Source: Catalinimonas alkaloidigena (GTDB taxonomy: Bacteria; Bacteroidota; Bacteroidia; Cytophagales; Flexibacteraceae). Taken from it: a stretch of DNA of 64,000 bases. The stretch is taken from assembly GCF_900100765.1 (NCBI RefSeq), contig NZ_FNFO01000003.1, forward strand, positions 372,001 to 436,000, written 5' to 3'. Positions 27,552 to 41,110 of this stretch are shown here, one piece after another (position 1 is the first letter of the stretch; the number at the start of each line of letters is the position of its first letter). The notes below the pieces were generated by a model. It saw only the letters and a program-made list of their open reading frames with translations. It was not told the origin of the DNA and ran no database searches. The translations under genes were made by a program, and so were the position numbers.

Positions 27552-28283
27552 CTACAGGTTATAATTAAGCAAAGGTAATTCTACCGCTTTCCGGTAATAG
27601 GCGTTCTTCTGGCGGATGGCCTCGATTTCTTCCAGATGCTTGCGCCGATGGCAGTCCGAGCCCAGCATGTGCACCCACCCCTGGTCGATCATGCGTTCGG
27701 CACAGCGGCGCGCCCCTTTCGAGTAGTACCCACCCAGCGACAAAATGTTTACTTGCATCAGCAGCCCCATTTGCAAGAGCCGTTCTACCATCGAAAAGTC
27801 GTTTTGCAGGTATTGATAACGTTCCGGATGGGCCAAAACGGGCTGATACCCCACAGCCTGTAACTGAAAAGCCAGGGCCTCCAGCAGGATCGGGGCATTG
27901 AGGAAAGACGTTTCGACCAGCACGTAGTTTCCGCCAAATGTCAGCAAAGGTTGCCGCTCTTTCAGGCACTCAGCAAAGTATTCGTCCAGATAGTACTCTG
28001 CAGCCGCCTCGATCGTCAGGTCGATCCCTGCCTGCGCGACGGCGTCACGCACCTGTTGCAATCCCTGCTCGATGATCTCGGGCGTATTTTCGTAATAATC
28101 GTGAATGATGTGCGGCGTGGTGATGAGCTTGCGGTAGCCTAATGAGGCAAAATACCGAATCATTTCGATCGATTCTTCCAGCGTCTGCGCACCATCGTCG
28201 ATGCCCGGAATCAAATGCGAATGCATATCCGTGAGCAAAGGGGGCGGGGGTGGCAGTTTCCTGCCGAACAATCGCGCTAGCAT
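27552..28283 (-). CDS. CpsB/YwqE-type tyrosine-protein phosphatase (PHP domain)
   Basis: A 243-residue PHP-fold metal-dependent phosphatase. After a proline-rich lead (PPPPPLLTD) the metal site opens with D19, H21 and H23 in DMHSHLIPGIDDG. Further ligands are expected at TTPHIIHDYY, AAAEYYLDEYF, VLAHPERYQYL and HMLGSDCHRR, all present. The enzyme dephosphorylates the tyrosine-rich tail of BY-kinases that control capsule length. The target is almost certainly the neighbouring Wzc-like kinase, whose gene ends 12 bases before this start. Confidence 0.92.
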   Translation of the reverse strand: MLARLFGRKLPPPPPLLTDMHSHLIPGIDDGAQTLEESIEMIRYFASLGYRKLITTPHIIHDYYENTPEIIEQGLQQVRDAVAQAGIDLTIEAAAEYYLDEYFAECLKERQPLLTFGGNYVLVETSFLNAPILLEALAFQLQAVGYQPVLAHPERYQYLQNDFSMVERLLQMGLLMQVNILSLGGYYSKGARRCAERMIDQGWVHMLGSDCHRRKHLEEIEAIRQKNAYYRKAVELPLLNYNL

Positions 28284-28295
28284 GGAGTAACGGGT

Positions 28296-30725
28296 TTACT
28301 TACTGCGGAACAGGTTCTTCAGCCAGGAACCTTCCTGATTCTCATTCCCATGATCGCTGGTATAATACTCGTGTCCGTAGCCGTAGCCGTAACCGTACCC
28401 ATAGCCGTAGCCATACGCACGCGAACTGTCTACGCCATTGAGCACGACCGACAGTTTCCTGATTCCATTTTCGTTGATCAGTCGGTTGATGGTCTTGGCA
28501 AACTCTTTCCGTGAATACTCGGAGCGTACCACATAAATGGGCACATCGACCCTGCGCATGATCAGCAGCCCGTCAGTAACTAGCCCTACGGGCGGCGAGT
28601 CGATTACGATCACATCGTACCGCTGTCGTAATGCTTCAATGGCCTCCTGGAAGCTAGGGCGTAGCAGCAACTCGGAAGGGTTGGGCGGCAACGGCCCCGA
28701 GGTGATGATGTGCAACCCCTCTACGGAAGTTTGTTGAATTACCTCATCGAGTTTGTTGCGTTGAATCAGTAGCGTGCTCATGCCAACGTCGTTGGAGGCA
28801 TCAAACGCCAAGTGCACCTTCGGCTTACGCATGTCGAGGTCCAACACCACGACACGCTTGCGCGTCATTGCGATAATGCCCGCTAAGTTCACCGCAATAA
28901 AGGTTTTGCCTTCACCACTAATGGTAGAAGTCACCGAAATGAGGCGACTGCCCTGACTTGAGTTGATAAACTCCAGGTTGGTGCGAATGGAGCGTAGCGA
29001 TTCGCTAATAGCCGATTTAGGATTTTTATCCACCACCATGCGAGCCACGTCCAGAGGACTGCGTTTGTAGGCGGGTACCAATCCCAACAAAGGAGCATTG
29101 ATTGCTCTCTCTATATCGCGTTGGTTGGTGAAGCGGTTGTGCAACAGATAGCGTACCGCGATTAACCCTATGCCCAATCCCAGCCCAATGACAACGGCGG
29201 TAATGTAGTAGCTGCTTTTGATGGGACTGATGGGAACGCCTGGCAGGCTGGCTGGGGCCAGGATCTGAAACTCGGGAACCGTACCGGCTTTGGCAATGCC
29301 GAACTCCGCCACACGGTCCATCAACATCAGGTAGAACTTTTCGTACAGACCGTAGTAGCGTTGTGTACGGTTAAATTCCGTGTCTTTAGTAGGTAAGTTG
29401 GTAAAGGTAGATTCCAGTTCTTCGGTCAGCCGATCAATTTCCTTGATGCGCTCTTGGGTCTGTGTCCGATTGAAATCAATTAGTTCTTTAACCGACTTCT
29501 CAAGCTTGTTGATTTCGGTCACGCCAAACTGATACGCCTGGGTAGTCGGCTTGGTAGAAACCAAGAGTGTACTCTGCTCGATACGCTTGGTATTCAGTTG
29601 ATTTACCAAGCTAAGCAACTGTTCGTCTCTGATCGCCCGTGTAGAAGGGATGAACTCCACTTCGAGGGTTGAATCGACGCGATTTACATACGCTTCCAGT
29701 TCATCGAGTGCCGGCAACTGCTGCTCGTACGTAATGCGCTCAAACCTCAGGTTTTTGATTTGTTCCAGCGTCTGCCCAATGGTAGAACTAATGCTAAGGG
29801 TGCGGTTTTCGCGTACAAAGTCTTCGATACTCTCTTCCTGCTGGGCCAACTTTTGCGCAGTTGAATCCAGCTGGTCATCCAGAAATTTTAAGGTTTGCTC
29901 TGTAGCCAGGTTCTTATTTTCAATCGTCTGCACCAAATAGATGGAGTCGATTTTATTGACAATATCGCGCGCTTTTTCAGGCGTATAGTCTTTAAAGGCG
30001 ATCCGAATGGTACTGGCATTCGCATTTACCACGTTCACGGTCAGGTTTTCGGCTAAATACGAAATCAGCGCCCCACGACTGTTAATAACGAAGTAATAGC
30101 GCCGAATAGAACCGGGCACGGTAAAGAAACGCGTTTTATGAATCTCAAAGCGGAAATGCTGATTCTCATAGCTTTTGTCGAACAGGAAATTCCCCTGAAT
30201 CTCTTCCCCATTCAATTCATACTTCAAGCGATACTCGCGCTCGTTTAGCACTTCTAACTCTATGGATCGATCCTGGATCGCGCCACTTTTTAGCTTATAC
30301 TCTACACGAAATGGAGAGTCATGATACGCTTCAGAATTGACAACATCGCCGACTACGTAGTAGCTAACTGCCAAATCCATCGAATCAATAACCCGGTTAT
30401 ACACCAGTCGTGATTTGATGAATTCAATCTCACCGGTAATGTTCTCCACCTGCGACCCTAAGTCTGAGTTCCGCCCAAACAACACATTGGCATTGCGCTT
30501 TACCTCCAGCTTCAGCAGCGAGGCCGACTCGTAAACGGGTTTAATGTAACGCAACGAGATCCAGGCGGCCAGTACTCCCAGCGCTACAAATAGCAATACC
30601 CACACGATGCTACGATTGACGATCGAGAGCAGCTTGGGCCAATCAATCACACTCAGGAAGCTTTCTTCCTCTTCATTGTCGATGGGACGTCCTAAGTGCT
30701 GTATTTCCGTGGGCTCTACCATCAA
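28296..30725 (-). CDS. Wzc-like polysaccharide co-polymerase with BY-kinase domain
   Basis: An 809-residue protein. A Wzz-type chain-length domain lies between two membrane helices, one near residues 40-60 and the other at about 500-525. It includes a long coiled-coil region (about 270-470). The cytoplasmic BY-kinase domain carries Walker A SGEGKTFIAVNLA, Walker A' VVLDLDMRKPKVH and Walker B VIVIDSPPVGL. The C-terminal tail holds nine tyrosines, seven of them in an uninterrupted YG repeat (771-784), the expected autophosphorylation cluster. It would control polymer length and export together with the Wza-like channel and the CpsB-like phosphatase. Its start overlaps the end of the Wza-like gene. 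Confidence 0.93.
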   Translation of the reverse strand: MMVEPTEIQHLGRPIDNEEEESFLSVIDWPKLLSIVNRSIVWVLLFVALGVLAAWISLRYIKPVYESASLLKLEVKRNANVLFGRNSDLGSQVENITGEIEFIKSRLVYNRVIDSMDLAVSYYVVGDVVNSEAYHDSPFRVEYKLKSGAIQDRSIELEVLNEREYRLKYELNGEEIQGNFLFDKSYENQHFRFEIHKTRFFTVPGSIRRYYFVINSRGALISYLAENLTVNVVNANASTIRIAFKDYTPEKARDIVNKIDSIYLVQTIENKNLATEQTLKFLDDQLDSTAQKLAQQEESIEDFVRENRTLSISSTIGQTLEQIKNLRFERITYEQQLPALDELEAYVNRVDSTLEVEFIPSTRAIRDEQLLSLVNQLNTKRIEQSTLLVSTKPTTQAYQFGVTEINKLEKSVKELIDFNRTQTQERIKEIDRLTEELESTFTNLPTKDTEFNRTQRYYGLYEKFYLMLMDRVAEFGIAKAGTVPEFQILAPASLPGVPISPIKSSYYITAVVIGLGLGIGLIAVRYLLHNRFTNQRDIERAINAPLLGLVPAYKRSPLDVARMVVDKNPKSAISESLRSIRTNLEFINSSQGSRLISVTSTISGEGKTFIAVNLAGIIAMTRKRVVVLDLDMRKPKVHLAFDASNDVGMSTLLIQRNKLDEVIQQTSVEGLHIITSGPLPPNPSELLLRPSFQEAIEALRQRYDVIVIDSPPVGLVTDGLLIMRRVDVPIYVVRSEYSRKEFAKTINRLINENGIRKLSVVLNGVDSSRAYGYGYGYGYGYGYGHEYYTSDHGNENQEGSWLKNLFRSK
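28374..28415 (-). repeat. in-frame (Tyr-Gly)7 hexanucleotide repeat in the BY-kinase tail
   Basis: Seven consecutive TAyGGn units encode YGYGYG...; units differ only at third positions (TAC/TAT, GGC/GGT/GGG), so the array is near-perfect at DNA level. It lies at residues 771-784 of the Wzc-like kinase. Confidence 0.9.
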
Positions 30726-31582
30726 AATAGCCTGTCGATCAGGAAGTAAAGTGTAATGAGTGAGGACGTAAGGCCAATAAACGGAGAAACATCGCGGAGG
30801 CCTTCAAAAACATTTCTACGACCGGGCTCGATGTAAATAATATCGTTGGGCAGTACCTGAAGTTCCGCCTGGCGCAGCCCTTCGATTGTTTGCAAATTGA
30901 TGATTTGCACCGTTGGGTTCTTCAGATCACCCCGAATCAACCGGATATTGCCTGCGTTGGCAAAACTACCTACCCCGCCAGAACGTGCCAGAATTTCGAT
31001 GAGGTTTGTGTTTTCGTTCTCCAGATCCACAACCTGTCCTCCACCCCGGCCCGAGCTGCCGCCCAAAATGAATACGCGTCGGTTGTTGACCCGACAAATC
31101 ACGAAGGGATCTTCGTAAAACTCACTAAACCGCTCCGCCAGTACGCTATCTGCTTGGTAATGAGTTAGACCGGCCAGCTTCACATCGCCTACTAAGGGTA
31201 ACTTCGTAGTGCCATCGTACCGAACCAGATACTGCCGGAGTAGCATATTACTTCGGTTGTTCTGTCCCTGATTTCCGCCGCCCCCACCAACCACGTTGTT
31301 TTGACGCAAGCCCATCTCCCGGGTTAATTCCCCAGTTGGATCGAGAATCACTTCGCCGTCGTTCGTATACAGTGCGAGGATCAGGAAGTCGTTCACACGG
31401 ATCTTGTAATTACGCTCAGCATCGGCCAAGCTCATTTGCAAGGAGGCAGCATTCGCTGTGCCATCTGTACGGAACAAGATATCCTGCTTATAATAGCTGC
31501 ACGAAGTGCACACCAGCAGCAATAGCCCCCAGCATACCAACGCGCGACTTAGGTTACCTTTCGCCACCCAAGCGTAGTTCAT
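30722..31582 (-). CDS. Wza-like polysaccharide export lipoprotein
   Basis: About 286 residues from the ATG at 31582, chosen because it gives a lipoprotein signal ending in CTSCSYYK (Cys about residue 27); upstream in-frame starts do not. The poly-export domain reads YKIRVNDFLILALYTNDGEV and continues to LPLVGDVKLAGLTHYQAD. An SLBB-type segment follows (VFILGG...IEILARSGGVGSFANAGNIRLIRG, then VLPNDIIYIEP). A glycine- and asparagine-rich insert occurs near residue 105. The C-terminal hydrophobic stretch (FIGLTSSLITLYFLI) would cross the outer membrane, as in Wza. It should form the capsule export channel. Confidence 0.9.
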   Translation of the reverse strand: MNYAWVAKGNLSRALVCWGLLLLVCTSCSYYKQDILFRTDGTANAASLQMSLADAERNYKIRVNDFLILALYTNDGEVILDPTGELTREMGLRQNNVVGGGGGNQGQNNRSNMLLRQYLVRYDGTTKLPLVGDVKLAGLTHYQADSVLAERFSEFYEDPFVICRVNNRRVFILGGSSGRGGGQVVDLENENTNLIEILARSGGVGSFANAGNIRLIRGDLKNPTVQIINLQTIEGLRQAELQVLPNDIIYIEPGRRNVFEGLRDVSPFIGLTSSLITLYFLIDRLF

Positions 31583-31628
31583 GATAAAGTTTTGAATGGA
31601 TACAAGATACCCTTGCGAAGTAACTAAC

Positions 31629-32168
31629 TCAGAAATAATACGCATCAGGATCAAATAAGGGAAGGGCGGCATCTTTTTCTGAAAGATGAGGCTGCTGCAC
31701 ATGCCACGGAAGGTCCAGCTTCGGGTCGTTCCATACAACCCCGCCCTCCGAATCTTTGTGATAGAAGTCTGTACACTTATACATCAGCACGCAATCTTCC
31801 AGCGCCTCAAACCCATGTGCAAACCCCACTGGCACCCAGACCATGTTGTTTTGCGTGGCATCGAGCACGAAGCTATCGGCTTTGCCAAAGGTGGGTGACC
31901 CAGCCCTTAAATCCACCACCACATCCAAGGCTTTGCCGTGCGCGACCCGCACTAATTTGCCTTGCGCATGCGGATAACGCTGGAAATGCATGCCTCGTAT
32001 GACTCCCTTGCGCGAAAAGGATTGGTTATCTTGCACGAAATTTAGAAACAAGCCCTGCGCAGCAAACGCTTTGTCGTTGTAGGATTCAAAAAAAAATCCG
32101 CGATCATCTTGTAAAATGCGCGGTTTTATGTGATATACTCCCTCTAGATACGATTCTTCAAATACCAT
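31629..32168 (-). CDS. rfbC: dTDP-4-dehydrorhamnose 3,5-epimerase
   Basis: A 179-residue cupin-like epimerase from the ATG at 32168, the typical length. Active-site stretches are present: DDRGFFFESYN with the substrate-binding acidic and aromatic residues, RGMHFQRYPHAQGKLVRV with the catalytic histidine, DLRAGSPTFGK, and WVPVGFAHGFEAL with the second histidine, followed by YKCTDFYHKDSEGGVVWND. It makes the L-lyxo intermediate of dTDP-L-rhamnose. It heads the capsule run, 46 bases before the Wza-like gene. rfbA, rfbB and rfbD are not here, so either they lie elsewhere or the enzyme makes a related dTDP-sugar. Confidence 0.93.
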   Translation of the reverse strand: MVFEESYLEGVYHIKPRILQDDRGFFFESYNDKAFAAQGLFLNFVQDNQSFSRKGVIRGMHFQRYPHAQGKLVRVAHGKALDVVVDLRAGSPTFGKADSFVLDATQNNMVWVPVGFAHGFEALEDCVLMYKCTDFYHKDSEGGVVWNDPKLDLPWHVQQPHLSEKDAALPLFDPDAYYF

Positions 32169-32344
32169 TAGTGTCCGGATTTCGGGCAGAACTTGCGAAA
32201 TTCTTTGCACTAAATTAGGCACTTGCCCGCGGGTTGAGAAACAATCGCCCGAAATTTTATCGTTCCTGGGCCCAGTGAAACCATTTATGCCACGGCCTAT
32301 GTTACAGTAGGCTATCTCGGCAAGCTTGTAATTGTTATTAATTC

Positions 32345-39148: not shown

Positions 39149-40090
39149 ATGAACATGCAAAAAAAGCTTTCAGCTTACCTTATGTCATTGTTGGCCGTAG
39201 GCTCAATGATTTTCTTAAATTCTTGCGGCGATACCACAGAAGATCCAACACCCGGAGGAGGCGCCGCGCCTGAGATTACAGTAACTGTAGACGGAGAAGA
39301 AGATCCCGATTCTGTAGCCGCTTTTGTAGGCGATTCCATCGAAGTCGAAGTTAACATTACTTCTGCCGTAGGCTTCAATTACCTGAGTGTCAAAAAAGGC
39401 TCTACCGAGCTGTTCAGAAAGAATAAAGTGTCAGGGACAACGGTTACCAGCTACGACACTACGTTCTACTACGTTCCGACCGAAGCCGATACCAACGGCA
39501 TCGTGATGAACTTCGAAGTAGCAGACGACAATACGCCTACCGCTCAGACGGTAACCAGCAGTTTTGTCGTAACGGTTACGGGCATGCGTACCCAGACAGC
39601 CGTTCTGTTGGGCGGTAACCAGAACACAACCTACGGTAGCTTCTACGACGTAGACGGCGGCGGTAAAGTGTACAAAATTGCCGATGCCAAAGCCAATTCG
39701 GCCATGATCGATATTGTCTACTTCTACGGTCCGACCAACCTGGCCACGCTCGCCGCTCCCGATGACGAATCTGTGGATGTGGTCTACGTCAACTCTCCGT
39801 CGCGCCCCAGCACCTGGGATACGCAGAACTCTACCAAGTTTGTGAAGACGGATTTGGCCATGGCTGATTTCGACGCCGCAACGGCCGGAACCATCAACGC
39901 GACCATTACGGAATCGGGCGACTCGAAAGCGAACGAACTGGCCGAAGGCGATGTAGTAGCCTTTGAGACTGCCGATGGACAGAAAGGCTGGATCTATGTC
40001 AACAGCATCGATACTGAGCGCGACCCTACGACAGGTCAGCAGGAATACGATAACGGTTCCATCACCATTACGCTGAAGATCGTTAATTAA
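39149..40090 (+). CDS. lipoprotein of unknown function, paralog A
   Basis: A 313-residue exported lipoprotein: signal peptide with lipobox LNSC (Cys 26), then an acidic tether GDTTEDPTPGGG and a soluble domain rich in beta strands. The N-terminal part (about 45-145) resembles an Ig-like or cadherin-like sandwich. The C-terminal part (about 150-313) shares NSAMID..YFYG and the closing EGDVVAFET..GWIYVNSID with its downstream neighbour. No catalytic motif is seen. It is probably surface- or periplasm-anchored. Codons are GC-balanced like the rest of the region. It has its own terminator. Confidence 0.82.
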   Translation: MNMQKKLSAYLMSLLAVGSMIFLNSCGDTTEDPTPGGGAAPEITVTVDGEEDPDSVAAFVGDSIEVEVNITSAVGFNYLSVKKGSTELFRKNKVSGTTVTSYDTTFYYVPTEADTNGIVMNFEVADDNTPTAQTVTSSFVVTVTGMRTQTAVLLGGNQNTTYGSFYDVDGGGKVYKIADAKANSAMIDIVYFYGPTNLATLAAPDDESVDVVYVNSPSRPSTWDTQNSTKFVKTDLAMADFDAATAGTINATITESGDSKANELAEGDVVAFETADGQKGWIYVNSIDTERDPTTGQQEYDNGSITITLKIVN

Positions 40091-40105
40091 TTAGTTTTAG
40101 TGTAA

Positions 40106-40147
40106 TAAGCCCTTTTCTGTACCCTACAGAGAAGGGCTTATTTTTTT
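40106..40147 (+). terminator. rho-independent terminator after paralog A
   Basis: A 15-base stem (40106-40120 with 40126-40140, one wobble) with a 5-base loop, then seven T residues at 40141-40147. Confidence 0.9.
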
Positions 40148-40162
40148 ACCATTTTTATCATT

Positions 40163-41110
40163 ATGAAAAAGTCATCTCTCTACCTACTTGCGCTATGGGC
40201 GGTGGGGTTTGTGTTTTTTTTGAGTGCGTGCGGGGATACGACAGAAGACCCGGTTCCGCTGGGTGGCGATTTGTCGATTACCCTGACGGGCGATAGCATT
40301 ACCGACGAAGACTCGTACGACGGATACGTAGGCGATACGCTGTTGTTTAACGTAGCCGTTGAAGCCGAAGACGGATTCAGTGTGCTGACCATTTCGAGAA
40401 ACAACACCGCAGACACCTCGTTTTCCAGCCCGGCGGGGCAATCTCCGACCACGTTTAACACCACGTATCGTTACGTGCTGATGCCCGAAGACACGGCCGG
40501 CACCGTCACGCTGCGGTTCCAAGCCGAAGACAGCAACGGCAAGACGACGTCGCAATCGTTCGAAATCACGGCCATGAATACGCCTACCAAGGTCTTCAGG
40601 GCGGTTTTGTTGTATGCACCGCTAGGGCAACGGAATTCAGAAACTTTCTTCGATGCCCAAACCGGAACTACTTATACCGTGAACGAGGTCAATACCGGGG
40701 CCGCTAACACATCGGCCATGATCGACTTCGGGTATTATTATGGAGATGACGACGATGCCTCCATTGCTTCGCCAGCCGCCTACCCCGATTCTATTTACAA
40801 CCTGGGAACGTCGGGCAACCAGTGGAACACGCTTAACAACACGTTGCTCCGCCCGGCCAACATCAGCGCCGGTCAATACGCCGAAGCCCGTACCAACCCA
40901 CAGGGGATCACTCAAATCTGGAACGCCTCCACAGCCGACCCGAACTCGCCGAGCGGCGAAGCGGTAACGCGTATCGAAACGGGCGATTACCTGGTGTTTG
41001 AATTAGACGAGGAACGTGGCCGTAAGCGAGGGTTGATTCACGTAGAAGAAGTAAAAGGCACCTATAACCAAGGGGATTACATCAGAATCGAAGTCATTGT
41101 AGAAGACTAA
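40163..41110 (+). CDS. lipoprotein of unknown function, paralog B
   Basis: A 315-residue lipoprotein with lipobox LSAC (Cys 23) and the same tether start, GDTTEDPVP, as paralog A. The order of segments is shared: an Ig-like sandwich with GYVGDTLLFNVAVEAEDGFSVLTISR (compare FVGDSIEVEVNITSAVGFNYLSVKK), then TSAMIDFGYYYG, then ETGDYLVFELDEERGRKRGLIHVEEV. The two are clearly a tandem duplication that has since diverged widely. Function unknown. A strong terminator separates them, so this copy needs read-through or its own promoter in the short gap. Confidence 0.82.
   Translation: MKKSSLYLLALWAVGFVFFLSACGDTTEDPVPLGGDLSITLTGDSITDEDSYDGYVGDTLLFNVAVEAEDGFSVLTISRNNTADTSFSSPAGQSPTTFNTTYRYVLMPEDTAGTVTLRFQAEDSNGKTTSQSFEITAMNTPTKVFRAVLLYAPLGQRNSETFFDAQTGTTYTVNEVNTGAANTSAMIDFGYYYGDDDDASIASPAAYPDSIYNLGTSGNQWNTLNNTLLRPANISAGQYAEARTNPQGITQIWNASTADPNSPSGEAVTRIETGDYLVFELDEERGRKRGLIHVEEVKGTYNQGDYIRIEVIVED

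Follow-up and report, generated by a model that had tools for sequence, protein, structure and literature searches.

The window analysed here is a stretch of 64,000 nucleotides from Catalinimonas alkaloidigena (NCBI RefSeq assembly GCF_900100765.1, contig NZ_FNFO01000003.1, positions 372,001 to 436,000 of the forward strand). It carries a row of minus-strand genes around a tyrosine kinase gene whose product ends in a run of alternating tyrosines and glycines:

27552..28283, minus strand: CpsB/CapC-type PHP phosphatase (PF19567, 160.3 bits, cut-off 27)
28296..30725, minus strand: BY-kinase / polysaccharide co-polymerase of the Wzc type (listed ORF of 809 aa starting at TTG, with an ATG codon directly after)
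28362..28367, minus strand: Tyr 787 and Tyr 788, following His-Glu, from the translation
28374..28415, minus strand: (Tyr-Gly)7 array, residues 771-784, from the minus-strand translation
28560..28946, minus strand: kinase domain (AAA_31 match, residues 594-722, profile residues converted to coordinates)
30722..31738, minus strand: Wza-like polysaccharide export protein, as the listed ORF (PF02563, 41.9 bits, cut-off 28)
31629..32222, minus strand: RmlC, dTDP-4-dehydrorhamnose 3,5-epimerase, the next gene upstream (TIGR01221, 206.5 bits, cut-off 155.75)

The minus-strand translation of 28296-30725 ends in ...VLNGVDSSRAYGYGYGYGYGYGYGHEYYTSDHGNENQEGSWLKNLFRSK. Pfam matches to Wzz (residues 27-115), AAA_31 (594-722) and CbiA were all above their cut-offs; the Wzz score (PF02706, 32.1 bits against 25.5) indicated a Wzz-type domain fused to the kinase, while GNVR stayed below its cut-off (24.5 against 27.7 bits). 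TIGR01007 scored 169.3 bits (cut-off 108.05), and the solved structures of Wzc, CapAB, Etk, BceF and VpsO were sequence matches of the protein. In the translated kinase domain we read SGEGKT, LDLDMRKP and IDSPP, which we take to be Walker A, A′ and B. Nine tyrosines form a C-terminal cluster within the last 70 residues. Judged from its sequence, the protein thus combines the kinase domain, fused Wzz-type domain and C-terminal tyrosine cluster of a BY-kinase (PCP-2), and the identification of a BY-kinase with a tyrosine tail made in an earlier note on this DNA was borne out by profiles and by sequence matches to solved structures. Its domain plan resembles that of E. coli Wzc (K30, K-12). With 239.4 bits it falls under the 1068 cut-off of the E. 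coli Wzc equivalog (NF008568 / PRK11519); though outside that equivalog, it is predicted to work like Wzc, and it probably governs when surface sugar chains are built.

The phosphatase gene follows the kinase ORF on its downstream side after 12 nt, and its product is the probable partner that removes phosphates from the kinase tail. On the upstream side, the listed Wza-like ORF overlaps the start of the kinase ORF, and the true start of the Wza-like gene probably lies further downstream than listed. Porphyromonas gingivalis is a member of the same phylum as the window organism, Bacteroidota. For its Ptk1/Php1 locus (PGN_1523-1525) the operon order is described as wza-like, ptk1, CapC-like (PMC4082711), and the window shows the same row of wza-like, BY-kinase and CapC-PHP genes. 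As far as gene content can tell, the neighbours point to polysaccharide export and to no particular polymer, so that of the earlier designation 'capsule BY-kinase' we keep the second word and regard the first as unproven.

PF19567 gave exactly one match per genome in all 11 genomes of the family, the present one included. This sole phosphatase gene lies beside the kinase here and away from it in nine family relatives, on another contig in eight of them and about 0.74 Mb off in G006. In 30/30 loci tested from a genus of the same order (g8, see below) a PHP motif was found at most 1.5 kb from the kinase. Three full-length BY-kinases are encoded in the present genome against the single CpsB/CapC phosphatase match (window 27552-28283).

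The amino-acid repeat is exact: seven Tyr-Gly units in succession give an uninterrupted YxY spacing and are followed by H-E-Y-Y, as had been noticed, the last two being the additional tyrosines. The description of its DNA as a near-perfect hexanucleotide array was overstated. The codons read TAT GGC TAC GGC TAT GGG TAC GGT TAC GGC TAC GGC TAC GGA, that is, five different hexamers among seven units, and the longest exact period-6 tract is 17 nt. Tandem Repeats Finder scored 28375-28412 at 55, the highest of the 21 entries it listed for the window, with 84% matches and 6.3 copies. Hence a perfect amino-acid repeat is encoded by DNA mixed through synonymous codons, which does not look like a slip-prone build. 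How alike neighbouring hexamers are in this one array was set aside as evidence, the array being too short for a test of its own.

The earlier note had proposed a contingency locus, in which slippage in steps of six bases would give a population tails with differing numbers of phosphosites and thereby tune polymer length. The array does lie in frame in units of six. The long exact tandem tract that marks a hexanucleotide contingency locus was, however, missing from the interrupted window array with its 17 nt. Across 192 arrays of at least four units the median longest exact tract was 14 nt; 47 exceeded that of the window, 33 equalled it and 112 were shorter.

We then looked at the tails of related kinases. 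Among the family orthologues, the ten with readable tails carry 7, 6, 6, 6, 6, 6, 2, 6, 4 and 4 YG units; the eleventh, L018, is cut off by a contig edge, and so is L027. In g8, a genus of the same order that contains Hymenobacter, 119/120 genomes had a match at E<=1e-120 and the tails of 93 of these were read (91 genomes, and the two Hymenobacter loci L006 and L007, which coincide with G431 and G506): all 93 carry (YG)3-9, 37 of them with seven units. A genus of the same class, g20, yielded 80 tails, from 70 of 143 matching genomes and 10 further ones, with strict unit numbers of 1-9, six being below 3. In the longest Y-x alternations x was Gly in 641/644 cases (g8) and 416/429 cases (g20). 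The g8 and g20 kinases thus share the tail type of the window kinase, but other residues follow the array, often QGYYE or AYSNGYHE where the window has HEYY; GYY stands at a place like that of Tyr 787 and 788 in many g8 orthologues. In a sample of the phylum, restricted to the best-scoring among the matches listed, at least three units were present in 29/35 tails of the same class (from 34 genomes) and in 3/75 of other classes, fractions that are indicative since they come from the top of a score-ordered, non-random list. Two weakly scoring proteins that are not BY-kinases (L004, L005) were kept in the parsed set of 297 and carry no arrays.

The YG array therefore appears, from the tails compared, to be a common tail form in this class of bacteria, contrary to the premise that such tails usually have scattered tyrosines and the YG string is an exception. 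Because the repeat is spread over many species, chance seems no serious option for its origin, and for the same reason we rejected the idea of an array peculiar to the window gene or of a recent expansion. What looked like an oddity would then be shared across the class and naturally variable, many species having this kind of ratchet with differing numbers of steps, and the role of the number of tail tyrosines could be tested by comparing species. Among the titles and abstract openings searched, none dealt with how many YG units these kinases carry.

The tails of other classes (L029-L058, L094-L138; best-scoring among the matches listed) are mostly YY-rich, for example GSYYKYYYYYS or GSYYKYYRYYNYYYE, another recurring tyrosine pattern. 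A simple YYKYY-like motif occurs in 57/75 of them.

Copy number was compared between species and not between strains, with one genome per species and a single genome for the window genus. By strict run length, in a set still including the duplicates L253 and L254, 2/20 g8 pairs differed at 88-91% kinase identity, 3/9 at 91-94%, and the single pair above 97% differed as well. When interrupted units (YD, YS) were counted, 6/19 g8 and g20 pairs at >=90% kinase DNA identity differed, by 2, 1, 1, 1, 2 and 1 units, and so did 2/3 pairs above 97%; three of the six changed pairs share one trio (L207, L209, L213) and are not independent. In each of the two most closely related changed pairs the difference is two units. 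L233 and L234, with kinases 99.1% identical, have 7 and 9 units, as fits a single added 12-bp block together with a C/T change; L207 and L209 (98.6%) have 8 and 6, which fits 12 bp plus one substitution. Either step may instead be two separate single-unit events, and one-unit differences make up the majority of the six, which counts against block steps.

Repeat number thus evolves between species, and this favours part of the slippage idea: lengths differ in 6/19 close pairs and in 2/3 of the closest. The remainder of the idea, tuning of this array by slippage, was not upheld. Half of the changed pairs draw on the same trio, strict run length differs in 2/20 g8 pairs at 88-91% identity, the two closest changed pairs moved by two units rather than one, and, together with the 47 of 192 arrays whose exact tract is longer than that of the window, the codon pattern described next makes a contingency locus at this gene very improbable.

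We compared codons between neighbouring units in three groups (g8, g20, others). Arrays were thinned at 85% kinase DNA identity and then taken as independent, the duplicates L253 and L254 were dropped from g20, and the tests over several lags and groups carry no correction for multiplicity. When whole units were shuffled, adjacent units (lag 1) were less alike than expected in g20 (42 versus 60.5, sd 5.3) and in the others (27 versus 35.4, sd 3.9), without significance in g8 (86 versus 95.1, sd 6.8). Units further apart were more alike: at lag 2 in g8 (98 versus 78.7, sd 6.6), and at lag 3 in g20 (44 versus 33.6, sd 4.4) and the others (29 versus 21.6, sd 3.4). These shuffles gave no significance at lag 2 in g20 and the others or at lag 3 in g8. 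For tyrosine codons alone, neighbouring units matched in 160/380 cases in g8 against 196.7 after shuffling (sd 8.0) and in 120/279 in g20 against 145.9 (sd 6.2); the third group, a set including one g20 array, had 82/168 against 87.4, no significant avoidance. Outside the array, all three groups lacked such avoidance between successive Tyr or Gly codons.

Simulated neutral slippage of one unit gave lag-1 likeness of 1.05-1.33 and lag-2 likeness of 0.91-1.00 times the shuffle value, opposite to the lag-1/lag-2 values of 0.90/1.25, 0.69/1.17 and 0.76/1.16 observed in the three groups. The notion of a slippage-prone six-base array accordingly fails twice, on the synonymous interruptions and on this pattern across many species. 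Simulated duplication of two or three units had the same sign as the observations, and moderate avoidance simulated without indels gave 0.67/1.18/1.18. The lag pattern hence fits block duplication and selection against identical neighbouring units alike, and does not separate the two.

Selection against identical neighbours, by interleaving of codons for DNA stability and not by block-wise duplication, is a reasonable contender to which we give a little under even odds. The avoidance simulation reproduces the pattern without any indel, neighbouring tyrosine codons match less than shuffled ones in both g8 and g20, and the effect is confined to the array, Tyr and Gly codons elsewhere in the genes of all three groups being free of it. 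There is also a precedent in the avoidance of mononucleotide runs by codon choice, which has been attributed to selection (PMC1378130). The case is weakened by the similar outcome of simulated 2-3-unit duplication and the 12-bp differences in two close pairs, by the lag-1 result of g8 under the whole-unit shuffle, and by the third group, whose tyrosine codons showed no significant avoidance. Codon interleaving is the part of this work that might be new, and the codon pattern amounts to a modest natural experiment that sets selection for DNA stability against selection for variability in a protein repeat.

Synonymous divergence was counted in 24 g8 pairs of the same run length. Tyrosine codons differed at 79/181 positions in the array and 53/162 in the kinase, glycine codons at 68/186 and 144/320 respectively; the tyrosine excess is marginal (p 0.045, Fisher's test, pairs not independent). 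Array and kinase thus show divergence of similar magnitude. An array acting as a strong substitution hot spot was rejected, Gly codons diverging less inside it and Tyr codons somewhat more.

Our preferred reading, which we put at roughly 80%, is that the array is a C-terminal, uninterrupted YxY phosphorylation ratchet kept by selection at the protein level. In K30 Wzc of E. coli a YxY ratchet has been described in which Tyr i-2 sits in a tyrosine pocket (PMC11986026); the tail enters the active site of the neighbouring subunit, and phosphorylation, running from the C-terminal end, loosens the octamer (PMC11986026, PMC8285477). As these reports present it, the kinase is octameric with a Tyr-rich tail, and the extent of phosphorylation matters rather than any particular tyrosine. 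By analogy, the YG tail would be an unbroken series of YxY steps, each tyrosine two residues from the next: Tyr i would enter the active site of the neighbouring subunit with Tyr i-2 lodged in the tyrosine pocket, and stepwise phosphorylation from the C-terminal end would loosen the kinase ring until it falls apart. The PHP phosphatase of the adjacent gene would reset the tail, and the cycle would gate polymerisation and export. Selection would keep the protein pattern while codons drift, and copy number would shift between species, at least sometimes as 12-bp or 18-bp blocks, which is not a fast hexanucleotide switch.

Among the closest known tails is that of P. gingivalis Ptk1, reported to carry phosphate at Y775, 782, 784, 786, 788 and 790, which Php1 removes (PMC6759763). 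Its tyrosines from 782 to 790 stand at every second residue; organism and polymer differ, and Ptk1 is compared through a description that gives the tyrosine positions and not the residues between them. Unlike the window's unbroken YG string, the YxY pattern of K30 Wzc is described as broken at N711, and the partner of E. coli Wzc, Wzb, is a PTP-family phosphatase where the window has a PHP one. Streptococcus pneumoniae CpsD also has a Gly-spaced tyrosine repeat at its C-terminus, (YGX)4 according to a title cited in PMC4574921, with a three-residue unit and with kinase and membrane part as two proteins (PMC4574921). From the Wzc ratchet and the phosphorylated Ptk1 tail we infer phosphorylation and ratchet function for this particular tail.

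The tail might instead be mainly a sticky aromatic low-complexity segment joining kinases, phosphorylation being secondary. Peptides with X-Tyr motifs (X = Asn, Gly or Ser) are described to self-assemble into fibrils (PMC11093263). We hold this to be extremely unlikely, however, as the Tyr-rich tails of other classes that lack the Gly spacer (YYKYY-like, 57/75) fit phosphosites better, and as a like tail is the one reported phosphorylated in Ptk1.

Four observations bear on the details of the ratchet. The phosphatase gene away from the kinase in nine family relatives counts against it, as does, for selection on the protein, the somewhat greater divergence of Tyr codons in the array than in the kinase. 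E. coli rings are said to dissociate after the fourth phosphorylation, which does not readily account for seven to nine tyrosines. Finally, opposite the acidic pocket residue E675 of Wzc the window protein has Glu (hand count on the alignment), whereas Thr or Val stands there, by eye, in the three YG-tailed relatives L006, L014 and L020; hence the tyrosine pocket of YG-tailed relatives may differ from that of Wzc.

A more speculative extension, which we consider doubtful, joins ratchet and codon interleaving: the class would keep a perfectly regular protein ratchet and interleave synonymous codons against slippage, and the length of the tail (about 2 to 10 steps) would act as a slowly evolving timer of ring lifetime and hence of the species' polymer length.

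The two further full-length BY-kinases of this genome are L002 and L003. L003 has no array in its tail. L002 (G000:C5:259302-261548, minus strand, outside the window) ends in a perfect (GGGTAT)6 array; its 39 nt of exact repeat is the longest exact tract among the 192 arrays, which makes L002 a better slippage candidate than the window array. Elsewhere in the window, the adjacent ORFs at 39149-40090 and 40163-41110 have similar lipoprotein-like starts by eye (NSCGDTTEDP and SACGDTTEDP), and the pair (39149-41110) is perhaps a tandem duplication.
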